Assembly: GCA_002134785.1 (NCBI GenBank)
Contig: MBQZ01000073.1
Location: forward strand, 1-64,000
Length of the DNA stretch: 64,000 nt
Origin: Crenothrix sp. D3
GTDB taxonomy: Bacteria; Pseudomonadota; Gammaproteobacteria; Methylococcales; Methylomonadaceae
Direction of reading: 5' to 3'
The first letter of the stretch is position 1, and every line of letters begins with the position of its first letter. The position numbers and the translations under genes are program-made. The notes beneath the pieces were generated by a model, which saw nothing but the letters and a program-made list of their open reading frames with translations, did no database searches and had not been told where the DNA came from. Below, piece after piece: positions 7,697 to 52,925 of the stretch.

Positions 7697-7969
7697 TACA
7701 CACCCCCTGCAATTGCAAAGGTGATAAGCGAAAATTTGGGATTATTTTTTACGCAAAAAACAACGCACAATAAGCATTGACTAAGGTAAAAATAATTTTG
7801 GATTTTAGTCCAAGATTGGACTAGAGAGAATTGGTTTTGCGGGTTCATTACGCCACCTCATTGAGCAAATAATGTAGAAGTGCGCCTAACAAGCACCTTG
7901 CTACGGTTATGTTGCTTCAATTCGACGGGCAATCTTATTGAAATTTCTTTGTCCATCAAAGGGTTATGA

Positions 7970-8045
7970 TGGTGGGTCGTGCGCGATTCGAACGCGCGAC
8001 CATCGCATTAAAAGTGCGGTGCTCTACCGGCTGAGCTAACGACCC
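7970..8045 (-). tRNA. tRNA-Lys (TTT anticodon)
   Basis: Read on the minus strand, the 76 bases begin GGGTCGTTAGCTCAG and end CGACCCACCA, so the CCA end is encoded. The acceptor stem GGGTCGT/ACGACCC is perfect, the D arm has GCTCAGCCGGTAGAGC, the anticodon loop is CTTTTAA, and the T arm is CGCGCGTTCGAATCGCGCG-like. It follows the queC gene on the same strand. A truncated integrase lies beyond its 3' end, suggesting past use as an attachment site. Confidence 0.95.
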
Positions 8046-8090
8046 AACAAAGAAAGACAATTATAACGATTATTATGAATTATGCAACAC

Positions 8091-8765
8091 TTATTTTTGG
8101 TAACGTGTGCAGTCTGGAATGCCTGCTTCAATAAAACCTGCTTTTCTTAGGCGGCAGGCATCGCATTCGCCACAGGCGTGTCCTTGTTCATCGGCGGAAT
8201 AACAGGATACGGTGCGTTGGTAATCAACATCTAGGGCTATGCCTGTTTTGATTATTTCTGCTTTGCTTAGGTGTATCAGCGGGGTGTGAATGGAAAAATG
8301 CGTGCCTTCTACGCCTGCTTTGGTGGCTAGGTTGGCTAATTTTTGAAAACTTTCGATAAATTCGGGGCGGCAATCAGGATAGCCTGAGTAATCAACGGCA
8401 TTTACGCCGATAAAAATGTCGTGCAAATGCAGGACTTCTGCCCAACCTAAGGCAAATGATAAGAAAATGGTGTTTCTGGCTGGGACATAGGTGACAGGTA
8501 TGCCTGTTTGTAAGGTGTGCGGCACGGCGATGTGTTCATCGGTGAGTGCTGAACCACCTATTGAACCTAAGCCCAGTTTAATTATTTTATGGTCGGCTAC
8601 TTGGTAATCGGCAGCGATTTGAGCGGCGGCGATGAGTTCGGCATTGTGGCGTTGCCCGTAGTCAAAACTGAGGGCGTAGCATTTAAAACCTTGCTGTTGG
8701 GCAAGTGCGAGTACGGTGATGGAGTCTAATCCGCCTGATAGCAGGACAATGGCTTTTTTTTGCAT
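8091..8765 (-). CDS. queC: 7-cyano-7-deazaguanine synthase
   Basis: QueC converts 7-carboxy-7-deazaguanine to preQ0 with ATP and ammonia in queuosine biosynthesis. The 224-residue protein opens with the PP-loop ATP site [16 protein letters not shown], which pairs with [14 protein letters not shown]. The C-terminus has the zinc-binding cysteines in [20 protein letters not shown]. The length is normal. It is the last gene of the tol-pal-cpoB-queE-queC run, five bases after queE. The two que genes downstream of cpoB are a common gammaproteobacterial arrangement. No preQ1 riboswitch is visible, as expected for genes inside an operon. Confidence 0.95.
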
Positions 8766-8770
8766 AGTAT

Positions 8771-9415
8771 TTATTTGCCTTGGGCATCATCCCAAAGCAG
8801 TTTATGAAGTTGAATTTGAAAACGTACGGGCAGTCTATCGCTGAGAATTTTGTCGGCAAGTTCTGTTGGATTTTGCTGTCCCATAACGGGTGAAAATAAA
8901 ATTTCGCAACGATTAAGCAGGTCGTATTCGGCTAATATTGCTTTTGACCAGCTGTAATCGTCATCGTTACCGATAACAAATTTAATTTGATCCTGCGTAG
9001 TGAGATGTTCAATGTTGGCATAACGATTTTTATCCATTTCGCCTGAGCTAGGGGTTTTTATGTCCATAACTTTGATTGCACGCAGGTCAACCGCTGACAC
9101 ATCAAGCGCACCACTGGTTTCTAGGGAAACGGTATAGCCTTTATCCAGTAATTGGGTCATTAACTCAAGGCAAGCAGGTTGGGCTAATGGCTCACCACCT
9201 GTGACGGTGATGTATTTGCCACCATATTGTTCAACGTCAGCCAGAATATCCGCTAATGTCATTTTTTTACCGCCCGTAAAGGCATAAGCGGTATCACAAT
9301 ACACACAGCGTAATGGGCAACCTGTCAGGCGAATAAATACCGTGGGCAAGCCTACGGTATTGGATTCACCTTGTAGTGAGTAAAAAATTTCAGTAATGCG
9401 CAGTGAATGGGTCAT
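8771..9415 (-). CDS. queE: 7-carboxy-7-deazaguanine synthase (radical SAM)
   Basis: QueE rearranges 6-carboxytetrahydropterin to 7-carboxy-7-deazaguanine using a 4Fe-4S cluster and S-adenosylmethionine. The cluster motif is CPLRCVYCD (CxxxCxxC), preceded by the substrate-binding IFYSLQGE segment; VTGGEPLAQ is the SAM-binding GGE motif. The 214-residue length fits. The start ATG shares one base with the cpoB stop (TAATG), so the genes are translationally coupled. QueE substrate comes from QueD, which is not in this window. Confidence 0.95.
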
Positions 9416-10263
9416 TACTTTAATTGTTGTAGTTTTTTCTCTGCCGAATGGGCAGCGGGAGTGTTGGCAAATTCGGCGGTTACACGCGTCAAATATTCAC
9501 GCGCTTTTTCGTTATTTTTTTGATCCGCTTCAATCGTACCTAGTCTTAATAAAACATCGGCTATTTTGGTGCTGTTAGGGTATTTTTCCAGCACGAGATT
9601 GTAGACCTGCCGCGCGGAATCAGCATCGGGTTTAACACGATAGGCTTCACCTAAATAATAGTTAGCAACATCCGCATAGCCGCCTGTTGGATACTGACTT
9701 AAATAGGCTTTAAATTGCTCTATTGATTGGTCGGTTTTACCGCTACGCAGTGAGCTATAGGCTTGTTGATAGGCTTGTTTTTCACCGCCTGAGGCTTGCA
9801 CTTCTGGGGGTTTAGGTGCAGGTGGCGCAGGTGCTGTCACTTCTGGTTCAACAGGCGCAGGAGCTGGAACTGGAACGGGGAGTGGTGCTGACAAATCGGT
9901 CACTGTGGTCTGAGGGACTGGCGGTGTTTCAGCAATGGGCTGAGCGGCTGGACTTGGGCTACCGCCTTTTTCTGCATTTTGTAAGCGTTCATCAAAGTCA
10001 GAATACATGGTCGTTTGATTTTTTTTCAGTTCAGAAATCAAATTGCCCTGCTCTTCTACCTTGCCCCTCAGTTGTTGCACTTCATTTTGTAATTGATCCA
10101 AACGCGCGATGACATCATACAATGCCTTAGACGAAGGGGCAGCCGCATTAGGTAGTGGCGCAGAGGCTGGGTAAGATGAATTGTCAATCACAGGGGGTAA
10201 TAATTCAGATTCTGCAAACGCGTTGCCACAAAGACATAATAATAAAAAAGCATATTTTTTCAT
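9415..10263 (-). CDS. cpoB: Tol-Pal cell division coordinator CpoB (YbgF)
   Basis: A periplasmic protein that binds TolA and links the Tol-Pal system to peptidoglycan synthesis at division. The start at MKKYAFLLLCLCGNAFA is chosen over the longer frame because it gives a clean signal peptide cleaved after AFA. Residues about 45-105 form a coiled coil (LYDVIARLDQLQNEVQQLRGKVEEQ) used for trimerisation. A Pro/Ala-rich linker follows, then TPR repeats (QAYSSLRSGKTDQSIEQFKAYL, YYLGEAYRV) to the C-terminus. The linker is long and Pro-rich (PVPVPAPAPVEP). It lies four bases after pal and is coupled to queE. Confidence 0.93.
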   Translation of the reverse strand: MKKYAFLLLCLCGNAFAESELLPPVIDNSSYPASAPLPNAAAPSSKALYDVIARLDQLQNEVQQLRGKVEEQGNLISELKKNQTTMYSDFDERLQNAEKGGSPSPAAQPIAETPPVPQTTVTDLSAPLPVPVPAPAPVEPEVTAPAPPAPKPPEVQASGGEKQAYQQAYSSLRSGKTDQSIEQFKAYLSQYPTGGYADVANYYLGEAYRVKPDADSARQVYNLVLEKYPNSTKIADVLLRLGTIEADQKNNEKAREYLTRVTAEFANTPAAHSAEKKLQQLK

Positions 10264-10267
10264 TGTG

Positions 10268-10837
10268 TTATCTCGTATAAACAATTTCAACACGGCGGTT
10301 TTGTTCCCAAGCCGATTCATCACTGCCCATTGCCGCAGGTTTTTCTTCACCATAACTTACCGTTTGCAGTTGGCTGTCCGACACACCATGCGATTTCATT
10401 ATATTAGCAACGGATCTAGCGCGTTGTTCGCCTAAGGCAACATTGTATTCACGCGAGCCGCGTTCATCACTATTGCCTTCTAGGATAATATGTATTTTGG
10501 GATTAGCGACTAGATATTGCGCGTGAGCAGTAACGACAGGCACAAAATCAGGCTGTACTTCACTGCTATCGAGCATAAAATAAATGACTTTAGCCTGTGG
10601 GCTATTAGGATCATTAAATTCTTCACCGCTACCCGCACCGTGCATACCGTCTGTATTCAGTCCGTAGGCATTAACACCTGCACCATTATTTAAACCGTTG
10701 GTGGACGCTCCATTCACTTTACTATTGGCGGCATTTTGCACACCATCGGTAACACTAATGGGTTTTTTATCATCACTACAGGCTGATAACAAACTGGTGC
10801 TTATCAGCAATGCTATGAATGTTTTATTGAATTTCAT
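10268..10837 (-). CDS. pal: Peptidoglycan-associated lipoprotein
   Basis: An outer-membrane lipoprotein that anchors the envelope to peptidoglycan and is moved by TolQRA and TolB. The signal peptide ends in the lipobox LLSAC, giving Cys20 as the lipidated residue. A Gly/Asn/Ala-rich linker (residues 30-72) leads to the OmpA-like domain, with VIYFMLDSSEVQ and the diaminopimelate-binding region EGNSDERGSREYNVALGEQRA. Its linker is longer than that of E. coli Pal. The length is 189 residues. It lies between tolB and cpoB in the canonical order. Confidence 0.96.
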   Translation of the reverse strand: MKFNKTFIALLISTSLLSACSDDKKPISVTDGVQNAANSKVNGASTNGLNNGAGVNAYGLNTDGMHGAGSGEEFNDPNSPQAKVIYFMLDSSEVQPDFVPVVTAHAQYLVANPKIHIILEGNSDERGSREYNVALGEQRARSVANIMKSHGVSDSQLQTVSYGEEKPAAMGSDESAWEQNRRVEIVYTR

Positions 10838-43696: not shown

Positions 43697-44419
43697 TTAA
43701 AACCCTGTTTGTTGGTTAGCGTTAGTAAACCAGTGTGTTAAGTTCACATAGCCGCCAAACCAAGCTGCTATTTTTTTGCTGGATAAATCAGGCAGGTCAT
43801 GATGGGCAATAAACCCCAACGGCGTGGTATTGGGCAATAATTCTACAATGCGTTTACTGACATAATGCTGAATCACCGCCAATTCAGACGGCGGGATTTT
43901 ATTGTAAATTAGCCCGATATTTTGCTGATGTTTACTTTGTATCAGCGATACATTTAACACGGTGTCATCAATCGCCGCACCAATACCTGATTTGCCGACA
44001 AAAATAATGCGGCACGGCAATAATGCGGCAATGTCAGTATTTGCCACGCCCACCACGCTACCCACTGACGGCGAGCCGATGCCATCAATCAGCACGATAG
44101 TTTTACCCTTGCCAATCGTCATAATGTTCTGCACGATAGTTGCCAGTAATTCATCAGAGGACGGCGTTAGTCCATCAATGAAATCACGCGTAAAACCTTT
44201 TTTGAATAGTAAGCCACCCCTGTCCATAAACACGATACCTTGTTCAGCACAAAACCGCGCCACCGCTTGTTGTTCAGTACATTGGGTGGTGGGTTTGATA
44301 TAGGCGAGTTGCTGAGGCGAATAACCATAAACCAGCAACTGCGCCAAAATACCTAAGCATACCGTGCTTTTTCCTACGCCTGAATTTGACCCCATGATGT
44401 ACAAATAAGCAGTATTCAT
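43697..44419 (-). CDS. P-loop protein resembling dethiobiotin synthetase
   Basis: A 240-residue protein with Walker A GSNSGVGKST at residues 10-19 and a Walker-B-like TIVLIDGIGSPSVGSV. The fold is that of dethiobiotin synthetase/cobyrinate amidase-like NTPases (segments QLAYIKPTTQCTEQQ, IIFVGKSGIGAAIDD, NIGLIYNKIPPS). No BioD substrate residues can be confirmed, and no biotin genes are nearby. It is three bases downstream of the HypX fusion gene and should be co-translated, so it may help that protein; this pairing is not one I know. Confidence 0.7.
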   Translation of the reverse strand: MNTAYLYIMGSNSGVGKSTVCLGILAQLLVYGYSPQQLAYIKPTTQCTEQQAVARFCAEQGIVFMDRGGLLFKKGFTRDFIDGLTPSSDELLATIVQNIMTIGKGKTIVLIDGIGSPSVGSVVGVANTDIAALLPCRIIFVGKSGIGAAIDDTVLNVSLIQSKHQQNIGLIYNKIPPSELAVIQHYVSKRIVELLPNTTPLGFIAHHDLPDLSSKKIAAWFGGYVNLTHWFTNANQQTGF

Positions 44420-44422
44420 GGA

Positions 44423-46576
44423 TTAAGCTATTTCTGTTTTGCAATAAGTATCAAAACGCATATCCGAATTGAGAATATGTTTTGCCCATTTATCCATAAA
44501 ATCTTCAATATCGGCAGCTTGCCATTCGTTATGATTAATTTTATCGTCGATGGTCGCTAATTTTTCTAGCATAAACGCGTGTTCTTTTACATGGCTTCGA
44601 TAACCATTAAATTCAACGTGTCGCATTGAGGCTTCTTCAGCGGAAAAATGTTCTTTAACGTGTTGCAGTAATATTTGAATATTGCGATTCAATTCGGCTT
44701 TATTACCAGAATCGACCAATTTATTAGCCAAGGCAAACAAATCCTTGTGTTCGCTATCGATCTCCTCATCACCCAGCGCGTAATGGTCTTGCCATACAAA
44801 GTGATACAAACTGCCTGAGGATAGTTTGTTGATGGCTTTTTGCGTTTGCCGATGAATGGCAATGTTGTCAGGCGTTTGTTTATCCGCGCCTGTTTTGTAA
44901 ACAAAATTTTGCCGTGCAAGGTGATAATCATCGTTGCCGTAAAAATTAGCGTACATGTGGGTTAATTCAAACTGCCGATAAGCCGCGAGTGGCTTGATGT
45001 ACTCATCAAAGCAACGAGTTTTTGCTTTTTGCGTTAATAACAGCCGTAAGCCTTCGGTATCCTGCGCATAACTGTTGGCAAGATGTTTGATTTGTGCATG
45101 AAAAATAGCGTGTTGTTTATCGAGCATTTTGTCGATAAAGCCAAGTCGCCACGCTTTCTTCGCGCTAATCGGTAGCCGTTGTTCGGTCAAATCGGTTGCG
45201 ACTTCCACACCCACGCGTTTTGGTAATAAATACGTCCAATATTCAGAGCCGTATAATTCGCCCATGTTTTTGTAATGCGGGTTAAAAATCACGCCTTCTC
45301 TGGCAAATACTTGATCGCTAGCTAACGCTAAAATCGCCCCGCCTGCACCTGCATTCCCCGCTACCGCTGAAATGGTGAGTTTATCCAGCGTGGTGATAAT
45401 CTGATAAATAATGTCATCGATAGCGTTGATATTAAGCCATGATTCTTCAGCGGGGTCAGCGGCAGCTTCAATATGATTGAGATGTATGCCATTTGACCAA
45501 TTGTCCTCTCCGCCCATTAACACAATCACATTAACGGGCAAGGTGCAGACGTGTTGATACACAGACAGCAATAAACGACATTGTTCGGTACTCATACCGC
45601 CGTTGTGAAACGGAAAATACAAATAGGCAACGTTGCCTTCTTGTTCATACCACACCTCTTGGCAAGGTGTGTGTCGCCCTGCTTGCGTGTAATCTATATC
45701 GATGTGCTTGATGGGTTTGGAGAGCAGTTTTTTTAATGCAGAACCGTTAGTGGTCAACTGCTCTTTTAATACAAACGTTGCGGGTAATTTAATGGCTTTG
45801 TCGGCTTTAGGTTTTAGATGTCCAATCCACACCGCACCATCAACCGTAGCGCGGCAAATTGCATAATTAGCCGTGGCAATAAGTTCGCCTGCTTTGCCTG
45901 TAAGTTGCGTTTCTTTGTGCGCGTTGAACAGATAATAAGACTGTCCGTTTATCTCGTCTAACACACCTGGGCTGCCGTCAGCGGCGTTAATGCGTCTTAA
46001 AATGTCATCGGTTTTGTGTTTTTTCCAATCAATGGCACGGTCAGCTTGTTTAATGCTCGGCTGTAATTTCCCCTTAAACTCAGGGTTGTCATAATCCAAG
46101 GCTTGCGGACGAAAATCAGGGGCGTGAAAATAAGTAAGAGCTTCCCACAAACAATCCACCGCCGCTTGCGTCACTTCTCGATAAAACAAACTGCTTTTCG
46201 TGGTGGTACGCACAGGAAAAGTTTTATTGACCCAAATATCGCCAGTATCCATTTCTGCGCGGGCTTCCAATAACGAAACGCCCCATTCTTGTTCACCCGT
46301 TTGAATTGCCCAATCCAGTGATGACGCGCCTCTATCACCTTTAATGCCAGGGTGAACAATGAGGCAGGTGTAATTTTCGTAAATTTCGGGCGGAATTTTT
46401 TTGGTTAAGAATGGGCAGATGATTAATTCAGGTTTAAATAAGGCGACACCTTCCAATAATTGCGCCACATCACCAAGATATAGCTCTACAGAAACGGTAT
46501 AGCCCGCATCATCCAGTTCTGTGTAAAACCGTTGCGTTAAACCTGAAAACGCGGTTGAAATTAATAAAATACGCAT
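44423..46576 (-). CDS. HypX/HoxX-like CO synthase fused to bacteriohemerythrin
   Basis: A 717-residue fusion. Residues 1-270 resemble the formyl-tetrahydrofolate hydrolase/transferase domain of HypX, with LIVHPGIKGDRGASSLDWAI and EMDTGDIW. Residues about 310-560 resemble the enoyl-CoA-hydratase domain: WSNGIHLNHIEAA, NAGAGGAILALASDQVF, FNPHYKNMGELYGSEYWTYLLPKRVG. HypX makes CO from formyl-folate for the NiFe-hydrogenase active site in aerobes. Residues 591-717 form a bacteriohemerythrin domain with ligands His610, His643, Glu647, His662, His666, His700 and Asp705 in canonical spacing. Standard HypX is about 550-600 residues and lacks this. No hydrogenase genes are in the window. Function of the fusion is unproven. 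Confidence 0.85.
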   Translation of the reverse strand: MRILLISTAFSGLTQRFYTELDDAGYTVSVELYLGDVAQLLEGVALFKPELIICPFLTKKIPPEIYENYTCLIVHPGIKGDRGASSLDWAIQTGEQEWGVSLLEARAEMDTGDIWVNKTFPVRTTTKSSLFYREVTQAAVDCLWEALTYFHAPDFRPQALDYDNPEFKGKLQPSIKQADRAIDWKKHKTDDILRRINAADGSPGVLDEINGQSYYLFNAHKETQLTGKAGELIATANYAICRATVDGAVWIGHLKPKADKAIKLPATFVLKEQLTTNGSALKKLLSKPIKHIDIDYTQAGRHTPCQEVWYEQEGNVAYLYFPFHNGGMSTEQCRLLLSVYQHVCTLPVNVIVLMGGEDNWSNGIHLNHIEAAADPAEESWLNINAIDDIIYQIITTLDKLTISAVAGNAGAGGAILALASDQVFAREGVIFNPHYKNMGELYGSEYWTYLLPKRVGVEVATDLTEQRLPISAKKAWRLGFIDKMLDKQHAIFHAQIKHLANSYAQDTEGLRLLLTQKAKTRCFDEYIKPLAAYRQFELTHMYANFYGNDDYHLARQNFVYKTGADKQTPDNIAIHRQTQKAINKLSSGSLYHFVWQDHYALGDEEIDSEHKDLFALANKLVDSGNKAELNRNIQILLQHVKEHFSAEEASMRHVEFNGYRSHVKEHAFMLEKLATIDDKINHNEWQAADIEDFMDKWAKHILNSDMRFDTYCKTEIA

Positions 46577-46653: not shown

Positions 46654-47721
46654 TTAAATCTGGCGGGATGATGAATGAGTAAAACGCTCACGATAACTTT
46701 TAGGATTAACGCCAAGTTGTCGAATAAATGAGCGACGCATACGCTCAGGGTCTAAAAAGCCCGCTTTTTCAGCAATGGCTTCAATCGATAATTTACTGGT
46801 TGCTAAATAATGACGTGCGGTATCAATCCGTGCCATGTCTACATACTTAGCAGGAGTCATCCCTGTTTCAAGCAAAAAAAGACGGGCAAAATTACGCGGA
46901 CTCATACACATCCTCACAGCTAAGCTTTCAACGCGATGATCTTCAGTGGGGTTCGCTATAATCCACGTTTGTAACTCACGCAAATCGGGACGACTAACCG
47001 CTTCGCTGGTTAAATAATTACTAAATTGGGATTGACCACCTTGTCGTTTAAGAAAAACTACCAAATAACGGGCAACAGCCAGCGCGAGTTCATGCCCCCA
47101 ATCGTCTTCAACCATTGCCAAAGCGAGGTCAATGCCAGAGGTAATACCGCCTGAGGTAAAAATATTGTCGTCTTGAATAAAGATTTGATTGGGTTCAACC
47201 GTTATTTCGGGATAATCCAGTAGCAAACGCTGGCAAAAATCCCAGTGCGTGGTCGCTCTGCGACCATTTAAGAGACCACTTTCTGCCAGTGCAAACGTTC
47301 CCGTACAGACAGAAGCCAACCGCCTAACACGCGTAGACATCGTGCGTAGCCAGTCGATAAACACAGGATTTTGGAAAATAAACGGATTGCCTACATCAAT
47401 CCCTTGAAAAAACTTATCAGGAACGAAACCACCAGCAACAATCAAGGTATCAAAATTATCAACTTCGTTATAAGCATGAGTGGCAACAATTTGTAAACCC
47501 ATCAAGGTGGTTACAACCCCCGTTTTTTCTGCCAATATATCGATAATATAAGCAGGTTCTTTGATGATACCTTGAAGAGTTAACATGAGATTAGCAAAGG
47601 CAAACACTTCTGAAGGTCCCGCAATATCCAATATATCCGCACCTGCATAAATGAAAATCCCAATGCGCCGCACTTGAAATTCCCGCGTATTGTCATCAGG
47701 AGCTAACTGTTTAGTCGTCAT
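46654..47721 (-). CDS. GlxA family regulator (DJ-1/PfpI-like plus AraC domain)
   Basis: A 355-residue regulator. Residues about 15-200 form a DJ-1/PfpI-like domain (RIGIFIYAGADILDIAGPSEVFA, TLIVAGGFVP, SVCTGTFALAESGLL with a nucleophile-like Cys), and FTSGGITSGIDLAL follows. The C-terminal AraC domain has VESLAVRMCMSPRNFARLFLLETG and LSIEAIAEKAGFLDPERMRRSFIRQLG. Family members sense small amines or quaternary compounds. It is upstream on the same strand as the HypX fusion with a repeat between, so it may control it. Ligand unknown. Confidence 0.85.
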   Translation of the reverse strand: MTTKQLAPDDNTREFQVRRIGIFIYAGADILDIAGPSEVFAFANLMLTLQGIIKEPAYIIDILAEKTGVVTTLMGLQIVATHAYNEVDNFDTLIVAGGFVPDKFFQGIDVGNPFIFQNPVFIDWLRTMSTRVRRLASVCTGTFALAESGLLNGRRATTHWDFCQRLLLDYPEITVEPNQIFIQDDNIFTSGGITSGIDLALAMVEDDWGHELALAVARYLVVFLKRQGGQSQFSNYLTSEAVSRPDLRELQTWIIANPTEDHRVESLAVRMCMSPRNFARLFLLETGMTPAKYVDMARIDTARHYLATSKLSIEAIAEKAGFLDPERMRRSFIRQLGVNPKSYRERFTHSSSRQI

Positions 47722-47939
47722 AAATTCCTCACTTTCACCTTAAGTTGACGGATTCCGTAGAAATAAGCATGGTGTGATTCTGTTCTAATTCTTATAATTA
47801 CACAATGACATAAAACCCGCTTTTTCTGCCACAATTATCAGATTTCAAAAGTTAGCATAGTGATGTGGCTACACTAAACAGGACACACTAACTTAAAATA
47901 TCGAAAAGGGAAAAGTGTGAATCTAATGAGCAGAGAAAA

Positions 47940-50029: not shown

Positions 50030-50215
50030 CAAAAAGACGCACTTTCCATTCGCCTTCACCGTAAACCTTCAGTCCCGTGAAATCAATCACAACGTGCAGC
50101 GGCTCATTATGAACACGGCACGGAATCACCACCGATAAGGTTTTAGCGCGGCGCGAAATATGGCTGTGATCAGGGATGTTCAACTTCAGCCCCATCACAC
50201 AGATGAAACAGGCTT
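50030..50215 (-). pseudogene. IS5-family transposase fragment upstream of pmbA
   Basis: The minus-strand frame encodes MGLKLNIPDHSHISRRAKTLS and HVVIDFTGLKVYGEGEWKVR, the N-terminal and first-Asp parts of an IS5-type DDE transposase. After GEWKVR it runs into unrelated sequence joining the 5' end of pmbA, and nothing of the C-terminal core is left. It lies between pmbA and the diguanylate cyclase gene. Confidence 0.8.
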
Positions 50216-50306
50216 ATTAACTGATGTACGCATACCACCCGAAAAATGCTATCCTTTTCGGCATAGAATAAAGCAAGGCTCTCCCCATTTCGTAGAGTGT
50301 AACCGT

Positions 50307-52925
50307 ATGGACAAAAAAAATAATTCACTACGCGCCGCTGCTGAGAAACAACTTCAGCACGCGTCCACAATAGATTCTACGACTCGCTCTGCTGAAGAAT
50401 TACTCCATGAACTTCAGGTTCATCAAGTTGAACTGGAAATACAAAATGAGAACTTACGCCAATCTTACGAGGCGGTGGCAGAATCGCAGCAAGATTATTT
50501 TGAATTGTATGAGTTTTCACCAGTCGGCTATTTAACGCTTTCACATCAAGGCTTGATTGAAAAAATTAATCTGACGGGTGCAACGTTGCTGGGGAAAAAC
50601 CACTCCCAATTACTACAACGGCGTTTTGCAGGCTTTATCAACGCGACAGATACGACTCGCTGGCATCTTTTTTTCGCTCAAGTCATGCGGGGTAATGAGC
50701 AAAAAACGCTTGAAGTCAGCCTAAAGCAGCCTAACGATAACCTGCTTTATGTACAACTGCACTGTCGTCCTGTGTTAAAAGAGAATAAACAACCCACACT
50801 GCGGATTGTTTTAACGGATATTACCGAGAGCAAACAAGCCGCCGCCGAGTTGGTCATTGCTAATAAAGAAATTTTATTAGCTAAGGATCAACTGCAAGAA
50901 ATCATTAACCTGATGCCAATAGCCATTTTTATTAAAGATACACAGCATCGAATTATTCTAATTAACAAAGCATGTGAAAAACAGTGGGGGCTGAGTTTTA
51001 GCCAAGTGAAAAATACCACTGGCAGTCAATTTTTCCCACCTGAGCAAATGACTGCTTTTTTAGCGATTGATAAACAAGCTTTCGCCGATGGCAAACCGCA
51101 TGAAACTGAAAATCTTATGTGGAACTCACCGTTACAAGCCAATAGAATCCATCATTCTTATAAACAGGTGGTGTTTGATGAATCAGGTCAGCCCCTTTAT
51201 TTAATAGGGGTTTCTGAGGATATTACTGAACGCAAACGGACAGAAGAGGCCTTAATAAAAACCCAGTTTGACTTGCAGGAAGCACAGCGCGTAGGAAAAA
51301 TAGGAAGCTGGAGCTGGGATATAACAATCGATACCATTAAATGGTCGGATGAGCTTTATAAAATTCATAATAGAAATCCAGCTGTACCGCTGCCTACTTA
51401 TCAAGAAAACCTAAAATTTTATACACCTGAAAGCGCAGTGCGGCTAAATGCTGCTGTAGAAAATACTCTCAAAACGGGAGAGTCCTATCAAACTGATTTA
51501 GAACTCACACAAACAAACCAGATAACACACTGGATAGCGGCAAAAGGTGAAGCTGTGAAAGATAGCAACGGTCAAATAATCGCTCTGCGCGGGACGGTTC
51601 ATGACATTAGTGAACGCAAACGGATTGAAAAACAACTCACAGAAAGTGAACGGCACTTACGCGCAATTCTCGAAACAACTTCTGAATGTGTAAAACTGGT
51701 GGCGCGTGACGGGACGCTACTATCAATAAATGCGGCAGGATTAGCACTGATAGAGGCTGACTCAGAAGATGCGGTACTCAATCAATGCGTCTATACACCA
51801 CTTGCCCCTGAGTATCGTGACGCTTTTCAAACCTTTAATGAAGCAGTCTGTGATGGTAAGTCAGGCAAGATAGAATTTGAAATGTTCAGCTTGAAAGGTA
51901 CACGACACTGGATGGAAACTCACTCCGTGCCGTTCAGTTTGGAAAATGGCGATTGTGTTCAATTAGCCTTTACAAGAGAAATCACCGAGCGCAAGCGGCT
52001 GGAAAAATCTTTACACGATTCAGAATTAAAGTTTCGCGCCCTTTTCGATTTTACCAGTGATGCAATCATGTTGTACGATTCGATGATTTTTGATTGTAAT
52101 CAGGCGGCTCTTACTCTATTCGGTTGTAAAACAGTTACCGAATTTTGCACCTATCATCCTGCGGATTTATCACCGTTAGAACAGCCTTGTGGAACAAATT
52201 CCTTGATACTTGCCCAGCAAAAAATAGCTACTGCACGAGAAAAAGGAGAACTTCGCTTTGAATGGACACATAAAAGAATGGACACAGGAAATATTTTTGT
52301 TACTGAAGTATTACTCAGTGCCTTAATTTTAAATGAAAAAACCGTGCTGCAAGGAACAGTTCGCGATATTACTGAACGCAAAGCCATCGAAGAGAAAATT
52401 CAACAATTAGCTTTTTTTGATCCGCTCACAGGTTTACCCAATCGGCGCAAATTGCACGATAGATTGCAGTATGCCATCGCCATTAATCGTCGTAATCATA
52501 ACCAATTTGCGGTCTTCATGATGGATTTGGATAAATTCAAAGCGGTGAACGATAAGCTAGGACACGCGGCTGGTGATGAATTACTCAAACAAGTGGCGGC
52601 AAGAATTATCGACTGTTTGCGTGATAGCGATATGGTCGCACGTTTAGGCGGTGATGAATTTGTCTTCGTGCTAGAAAACCTGAAAATTCCCGAAATGGCT
52701 GACATAATTGCCTTAAAAGTGATAGCCTCTTTAACCCTACCGTTTCAACTATCCGACAATAACACGGTACAAATTGGCGCGAGCATTGGCATTAGCATTT
52801 ATCCCCAACACGGCAACACCCCTGAAAGTCTCATGGATCATGCTGACACCGCACTTTATCAAGCGAAAGACAACGGACGCAGCTGTTTTGCCTATTTTTC
52901 TGGTAATGGGTTAACGCTGTTATAA
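50307..52925 (+). CDS. Multi-PAS diguanylate cyclase
   Basis: The start at MDKKNNSLRAAAEKQ is chosen because upstream codons run through transposase sequence. The 872-residue protein has an N-terminal coiled-coil (LLHELQVHQVELEIQNENLRQSYEAV), then about five PAS domains, most ending with a PAC signature (TDITESK, EDITERK, HDISERK, REITERK, RDITERK). The C-terminal GGDEF domain is intact: LAFFDPLTGLPNRRKL, MDLDKFKAVND and RLGGDEFVFV. RDSD five residues before GGDEF is an I-site for product inhibition. It has no membrane segment, so it senses cytoplasmic signals and makes c-di-GMP. It opposes the EAL protein at 22558-24282 in activity. Confidence 0.93.
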   Translation: MDKKNNSLRAAAEKQLQHASTIDSTTRSAEELLHELQVHQVELEIQNENLRQSYEAVAESQQDYFELYEFSPVGYLTLSHQGLIEKINLTGATLLGKNHSQLLQRRFAGFINATDTTRWHLFFAQVMRGNEQKTLEVSLKQPNDNLLYVQLHCRPVLKENKQPTLRIVLTDITESKQAAAELVIANKEILLAKDQLQEIINLMPIAIFIKDTQHRIILINKACEKQWGLSFSQVKNTTGSQFFPPEQMTAFLAIDKQAFADGKPHETENLMWNSPLQANRIHHSYKQVVFDESGQPLYLIGVSEDITERKRTEEALIKTQFDLQEAQRVGKIGSWSWDITIDTIKWSDELYKIHNRNPAVPLPTYQENLKFYTPESAVRLNAAVENTLKTGESYQTDLELTQTNQITHWIAAKGEAVKDSNGQIIALRGTVHDISERKRIEKQLTESERHLRAILETTSECVKLVARDGTLLSINAAGLALIEADSEDAVLNQCVYTPLAPEYRDAFQTFNEAVCDGKSGKIEFEMFSLKGTRHWMETHSVPFSLENGDCVQLAFTREITERKRLEKSLHDSELKFRALFDFTSDAIMLYDSMIFDCNQAALTLFGCKTVTEFCTYHPADLSPLEQPCGTNSLILAQQKIATAREKGELRFEWTHKRMDTGNIFVTEVLLSALILNEKTVLQGTVRDITERKAIEEKIQQLAFFDPLTGLPNRRKLHDRLQYAIAINRRNHNQFAVFMMDLDKFKAVNDKLGHAAGDELLKQVAARIIDCLRDSDMVARLGGDEFVFVLENLKIPEMADIIALKVIASLTLPFQLSDNNTVQIGASIGISIYPQHGNTPESLMDHADTALYQAKDNGRSCFAYFSGNGLTLL

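Follow-up and report, generated by a model that had tools for sequence, protein, structure and literature searches.

HypX (also HoxX), the closest described relative of the protein analysed here, joins a formyltransferase to an enoyl-CoA-hydratase-like (ECH) domain and, according to the accessible part of a review (PMC12134894), makes CO from N10-formyl-tetrahydrofolate (formyl-THF) via formyl-CoA. Its known role, in that part and in the accessible part of a paper on the Aquifex enzyme (PMC6802093), is hydrogenase maturation, and the open-licence literature that we examined treats it as a hydrogenase maturation enzyme. For Aquifex aeolicus HypX (PDB 6j0p), the accessible text proposes His74, Asp80, Asp109, Tyr416 and Glu426 as catalytic and has the C-terminal tail border window B, with tail movement proposed to go with CoA swinging and CO release (PMC6802093). 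On pHG1 of Cupriavidus necator, hypX lies within hypABFCDE-X. Bacteriohemerythrins (PDB 4xpw-4xq1, which we take to be from Methylococcus capsulatus) and DcrH-Hr are four-helix bundles with seven di-iron ligands, known as a free carrier and as a chemotaxis-type sensor. Regulators of the AraC family of the FtrA/GlxA type combine DJ-1/PfpI and HTH_18 domains, and the MHYT-domain, CO-responsive repressor CoxC is, in the accessible part of its description (PMC11347149), a LytTR regulator from a setting in which CO is a growth substrate, its MHYT domain responding to CO, needing copper and having O2 as an antagonist.

Here we describe a HypX fused to a hemerythrin domain (HypX-Hr) in a 64,000-nucleotide stretch of the Crenothrix sp. 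D3 genome (the window). The protein has the formyltransferase and ECH domains and the five catalytic residues in common with HypX/HoxX, and differs in its extra C-terminal hemerythrin and in having its own AraC-family regulator and operator-like site; unlike C. necator hypX, its gene has no hyp genes nearby. This operon context, apart from hyp and hydrogenase genes, is the main new result. Our preferred reading, to which we assign a probability of roughly 45%, is that HypX-Hr acts in methane-oxidising Methylococcales as a stand-alone CO synthase that responds to O2 and belongs to a gas/low-oxygen response regulon. The features of the locus are as follows:

44423..46576, minus strand: HypX-Hr gene, 717 aa, a single uninterrupted reading frame with Pfam, NCBIfam and PDB matches
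45782..46576, minus strand: formyltransferase part, residues 1-265 (Pfam, Aquifex HypX alignment)
44903..45661, minus strand: ECH-like (decarbonylase) part, residues 306-558 (Pfam, Aquifex HypX alignment)
44444..44800, minus strand: bacteriohemerythrin domain, residues 593-711 (profiles, di-iron ligands, fold)
46654..47721, minus strand: AraC-family regulator with DJ-1/PfpI domain, 355 aa, 77 bp upstream of HypX-Hr
43697..44419, minus strand: BioD/AAA_26-like P-loop protein, 240 aa, 3 bp downstream of HypX-Hr
47800..47830, minus strand: conserved operator-like site GGCAGAAAAAGCGGGTTTTATGTCATTGTGT, 78 bp before the AraC start

Domains, conservation and history of HypX-Hr

Structurally, residues 1-578 of HypX-Hr are a complete HypX. 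Their closest solved structure is Aquifex HypX (6j0p, residues 1-578, E 5e-153), superposition of the model on 6j1i and 6j0p covers 556-557 residues at 2.3 A with Z near 45 (45% identity over 556 aligned residues), and Pfam, PDB and fold matches all find the formyl-THF transferase domain joined to an ECH-like domain that defines the family. Formyl_trans_N, Formyl_trans_C, ECH_1 and Hemerythrin (PF01814) each scored above the curated Pfam cut-off, and the NCBIfam model hemeryth_dom (TIGR02481) passed its cut-off (51.75) with a score of 72.2; the stricter NCBIfam 'bacteriohemerythrin' model (NF033749) reached 69.7 bits, below its cut-off of 84. Judged by these profiles, the C-terminus is a hemerythrin-domain protein outside the NF033749 subfamily. 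A preliminary description of the locus, which had not given the strand of the gene (minus), had claimed a HypX fused to a complete bacteriohemerythrin domain, and the Pfam, TIGR02481 and 6j0p matches, together with recurrence of the fusion at other loci, bear this out.

The fold list of the full-length model consisted mostly of HypX and ECH-domain matches, and the hemerythrin (Hr) domain was therefore folded separately. It was modelled as a four-helix bundle (pLDDT 88), with DcrH-Hr and 4xpw-type bacteriohemerythrins as nearest folds (Z 15.9-17.1, 122-126 residues, about 2 A). Because unrelated helical bundles in the same list reach Z 12-13 and Foldseek gave E 3e-3 at best, the assignment rests on the sequence profile (E 2e-15 to 4xq1) and on the ligands, H610, H643, E647, H662, H666, H700 and D705, which lie exactly where they had been claimed. 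In contrast to bacteriohemerythrins and DcrH-Hr, the domain is here the C-terminal module of a HypX enzyme. The linker between HypX tail and Hr (residues about 578-600) has a pLDDT of about 50, so the position of Hr on HypX is unreadable from the full-length model, which predicts no placement or interface with confidence.

The five Aquifex residues correspond to H75, D81, D110, Y435 and E445 in HypX-Hr and are kept throughout the 35 Hr rows of our tree (D81 in 34/35, the others in 35/35). The di-iron site, with its seven ligands in canonical spacing, is intact in 34 of these rows, the sole exception being L030, whose end is frameshifted. Since catalytic residues and ligands are both kept across the Hr rows, the HypX half and the hemerythrin half both look selected for. 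One might instead imagine a neofunctionalised enzyme, in which the HypX scaffold makes formyl-CoA or another product and Hr is a dioxygen-activating di-iron centre; surroundings that lack hyp genes and a BioD-like neighbour of unknown function at part of the loci would fit such a change, but the five residues to which formyl transfer and decarbonylation have been attributed are all retained, and we regard it as very unlikely.

From contigs of relatives, 53 distinct related loci were retrieved, and the fusion is present at 38 distinct Methylococcales loci, a count that includes the window locus, the broken L059, the deleted L055 and the contig-end-cut L012, L013 and L050, and for some of whose members Methylococcales status was taken from nesting in the tree. 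This recurrence rules out an assembly or frame error as the source of the join, which had been named as a finding that would undo the claim. The author of that description had also been unaware of any described protein of this architecture. Indeed, we found no description of a HypX-hemerythrin fusion in the open-licence literature: the accessible part of a bhr survey of M. denitrificans (PMC12607906) does not mention formyl, enoyl, fusion or hydrogenase, and none of the six terms sought occurs in PMC4919030. The architecture is widespread and conserved across Methylococcales.

Evolutionarily, the Hr label is confined to one Methylococcales clade of a 76-row quick tree of HypX, requiring 6 changes against a shuffled mean of 25, so placed that the domain was probably gained once and then lost several times (as in G016, a member of the Hr clade); such losses imply that Hr is dispensable for the enzyme. 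Among 398 sampled Pseudomonadota, none of the 21 other HypX-bearing genomes (E up to 1e-60) carried Hr on HypX, with no alignment beyond residue 594, and the plasmid HypX matches listed (40 of 53 records) all end by residue 584 and lack Hr. A tblastn search 3' of eight Hr-less members found no Hr remnant, the best match (L105, E 0.23) being weak and apparently inside the frame of another gene, and L043 offering only about 330 bases to search. Broken or deleted HypX(-Hr) copies occur at L046/L112, L059, L061/L113, L055 and L030, where the AraC gene still adjoins them.

Operon context and hydrogenase genes

By its gene arrangement, HypX-Hr belongs to an AraC(DJ-1)-HypX-Hr-BioD-like operon. The regulator, the operator-like site and the BioD-like gene all go beyond what the preliminary description saw. 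Like FtrA, its best NCBIfam match, the regulator has DJ-1/PfpI and HTH_18 in the same order, but it scores far below the cut-off of that model (220.8 vs 425 bits) and is tied to HypX. Of the 35 HypX-Hr loci that extend 1.2 kb or more upstream, 34 have this regulator at most three ORFs from HypX; the exception, without a local AraC, is L099, the second HypX-Hr gene of G049. The BioD-like gene is present at only 14/38 HypX-Hr loci. Across 101 related genomes, HypX (counting the broken copies of G002, G010 and G029) and AraC (E up to 1e-80) co-occurred in 33, side by side on one contig by their coordinates (Fisher P 4e-23, a test that ignores relatedness), with HypX alone in two (G081, and G056, where the contig ends) and AraC alone in one (G005).

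Small uncharacterised proteins of about 71-86 aa, ending in G[VM]PLG or WENIGxGG, recur at AraC-HypX loci (L038 6476-6709, L013 2485-2700, L107 12237-12470), some under operator-like sites. In the window, a 921-aa multi-PAS GGDEF protein of the diguanylate cyclase type (50160-52925) starts 2.4 kb past the AraC gene. A like AraC, 49% identical, lies 26 bp upstream of HypX in L151 (about 7953-10705; G287, from another Pseudomonadota class), where tblastn found no hyp markers and no operator was detected.

The main rival reading is that HypX-Hr keeps its known role and supplies the CO ligand of [NiFe]-hydrogenase under air, with Hr sensing or removing O2 near HypCD. The Crenothrix genome does encode both a hydrogenase and Hyp proteins, with a HoxH-like [NiFe]-hydrogenase large subunit (CGIC and DPCLSC motifs) on contig C23, recovered by the genome check that the preliminary description had called for, and hypF, hypC, hypD and hypE on contig C51. 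The observation that the window has no hydrogenase gene agrees with the genome search, in which the PF00374 matches, on C23 and at C73:90957, both fall outside it. From that observation it had been proposed that CO might serve a purpose other than hydrogenase; the proposal is plausible, but with hydrogenase and Hyp genes elsewhere in the genome, their absence from the window proves nothing. HypX-Hr, in a set that omits G002 and G021, coincides with HypD in 15/15 genomes, as the rival predicts, against 54/86 others (P 0.002; P 0.014 within the family; relatedness ignored), which keeps a hydrogenase role in play.

Other comparisons weigh against it. A tblastn search of whole loci (1.2 Mb), with Hyp and hydrogenase proteins of C. 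necator and R. leguminosarum plus the Crenothrix HoxH as queries, found no hyp or hydrogenase marker at any of 72 Methylococcales HypX loci, many of them short or cut at contig ends (L046/L112 being one locus that the neighbour-ORF tally holds twice, giving 73 rows), while the same search found markers in 9/15 loci of other Pseudomonadota and 6/8 plasmid loci. Thus, the usual, not strictly defining, HypX trait of having such genes alongside is missing. HypX tracks AraC more than HypD in the 101 relatives: HypD is found in 31/35 genomes with HypX and in 38/66 without (P 0.0015, relatedness ignored; P 0.13 inside the family of the window). HypX is also kept in G016 (99% complete) and G025 (100%), which have neither HypD nor any PF00374 match and in both of which AraC stands beside a HypX, and the Crenothrix genome has a second HypX, described below. 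We therefore consider hydrogenase maturation with an oxygen guard unlikely, if still a serious contender. Beyond Methylococcales, the retrieved stretches of L135 (Mycetohabitans plasmid), L136 (Acaryochloris plasmid), L146, L148, L150, L153, L154 and L052/L054 (Scytonema) showed a HypX but neither hyp nor hydrogenase markers, so that HypX genes of this sort also occur outside methanotrophs.

The operator-like site and a candidate regulon

The conserved block upstream of AraC has the consensus GGCAGAAAAnGAGGGnnnnnTGTCATTGT. A strict search of the Crenothrix genome with up to three mismatches returned the site at 47800-47830 as its only match and none for the control. The core pattern, with up to one mismatch, gave 42 matches in 35/101 genomes against one for the reversed control, and 28 of these stand a short way before an AraC gene, counting an AraC-like remnant in G012 besides 27 genes, these having been assigned to matches by eye from coordinates. 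We infer that AraC binds this site. Outside Methylococcales, ten HypX loci (L151 included) gave no match with a score over 8. Scans for sigma-70 promoters and terminators were no richer than shuffles.

Six operator matches stand at other genes of the system. One lies 261 bp upstream of the unlinked HypX-Hr gene L099 of G049, where AraC is not local, and one at HypX of G064; in G011, a match precedes a cytochrome c/Tll0287/membrane-protein operon on a different contig from HypX. Two occur in G029, at a small protein gene and at a NirK-like gene (L061 6711-8183; Pfam multicopper oxidase and cupredoxin, the NirK label being given by eye), and the sixth stands at a FAD/NAD/2Fe-2S reductase gene in G008, followed by a PNPOx/globin-type gene (L121 11805-14308) whose globin score is at the cut-off. 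The reductase, PNPOx/globin-type and NirK-like genes under the operator suggest a NO/low-oxygen regulon. Additionally, a zero-mismatch match in one genome, G096, stops 84 bp short of the start codon (ATG) of folD (Pfam THF_DHG_CYH); about 0.04 zero-mismatch matches would be expected over all genomes at equal base use. The FolD product leads to 10-formyl-THF, the substrate of HypX. The remaining matches are likely chance (G093, two in G063, the second of G021, G085 and G071) or doubtful (the second of G040). The cytochrome module was rejected as a dedicated part of the HypX system, as 6 of the 11 genomes with a Tll0287-like gene have neither AraC nor HypX.

These operator-linked redox and NO genes (NirK-like, reductase with globin-type, multihaem cytochromes, folD) would also suit a one-carbon or nitrosative-stress valve, in which HypX-Hr, at low O2 or under NO, relieves the formyl-THF/CoA pool or vents formate/CO, with Hr as an O2/NO trap and no signalling. 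CO would be a toxic waste product, however, and a permanently CoA-bound enzyme looks poorly suited to high flux, and we think such a valve improbable.

A sister HypX, MHYT kinases and the proposed role of CO

Beyond what the preliminary description saw, the Crenothrix genome has a second HypX beside an MHYT kinase. After this HypX (contig C24; 50% identical, without Hr) come a response-regulator-like protein, an MHYT-PAS-HisKA-HATPase kinase whose MHYT domain scores 92 bits, then a receiver protein and finally an ORF of receiver/kinase type. The order HypX-response regulator-MHYT kinase also occurs in G004, G007, G008, G011, G016, G033, G034, G054 and G057, with PF03707 matches at all nine places, making 10 genomes with our own. 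The MHYT domain is common to this kinase and CoxC; CoxC is a LytTR regulator, whereas the Crenothrix kinase belongs to a phosphorelay next to HypX, with CO as a putative ligand. In L094 (C24, 14161-15522), the final kinase ORF of this operon continues, where the contig stops, as a ClpB-like tail, which is either a genuine truncation or a chimera of the assembly; ClpB is likewise found after the BioD-like gene in L017 and L028 and, by eye, after mem18 in L053.

In G054, the stretch reads AraC-HypX-RR-MHYT kinase-RR-kinase-BioD-cytochromes. The AraCs of L053 (G054) and L124 (G011) nest among those of HypX-Hr loci (FastTree, no support values) and HypX-Hr was not seen in either genome (G011 being 77% complete), which suggests that the two HypX types replace one another behind a shared regulator. 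Divergent from AraC and 1.1 kb away from it, an MHYT hybrid kinase is found at the HypX-Hr locus L025, the only one of 38 with an MHYT protein within four ORFs of HypX-Hr. MHYT is missing from 8/15 HypX-Hr genomes (co-occurrence P 0.13, not significant), and G025 has HypX with neither MHYT nor hydrogenase. No operator was found upstream of the Crenothrix HypX-MHYT operon, and we thus make no claim of co-regulation there.

Mechanistically, our reading of HypX-Hr as an O2-responsive CO synthase would run as follows. AraC would bind the operator-like site and switch on the operon; HypX-Hr would move the formyl group from N10-formyl-THF to bound CoA, and formyl-CoA would be decarbonylated to CO, a production that we infer by analogy with described HypX. 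O2 (or NO) at Hr, tethered after the C-terminal tail bordering the CoA/CO exit window, would raise or lower CO output, and by analogy with Aquifex HypX the position directly after the tail that borders window B is a reasonable place for gating. The CO would then act in the gas or low-oxygen response, being read, in some species most likely, by copper/CO-sensing MHYT histidine kinases beside the sister HypX, which is the least certain step. CO signalling in Methylococcales is plausible; a full endogenous circuit, in which CO from AraC-controlled HypX is a one-carbon readout, Hr gates it by O2/NO and MHYT copper sensors pass it to the phosphorelay and redox genes, is a more doubtful proposition, and we would put it forward only tentatively.

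Thus, HypX-Hr standing away from hydrogenase genes hints that CO has another purpose in many methanotrophs, perhaps as a signal. If true, CO would gain a second biological use through a conserved HypX lineage that has a regulator, an operator-like site and an O2-binding domain of its own, a case to which kin of HypX-Hr in genomes without visible hydrogenase genes contribute, and HypX would be a bacterial gasotransmitter synthase, beyond its role as hydrogenase maturase. Because of the MHYT neighbours, bacterial CO signalling can be tested directly in methanotrophs that grow in culture, such as Methylomonas and Methylovulum, with a bearing on methanotroph life at the oxic-anoxic boundary.
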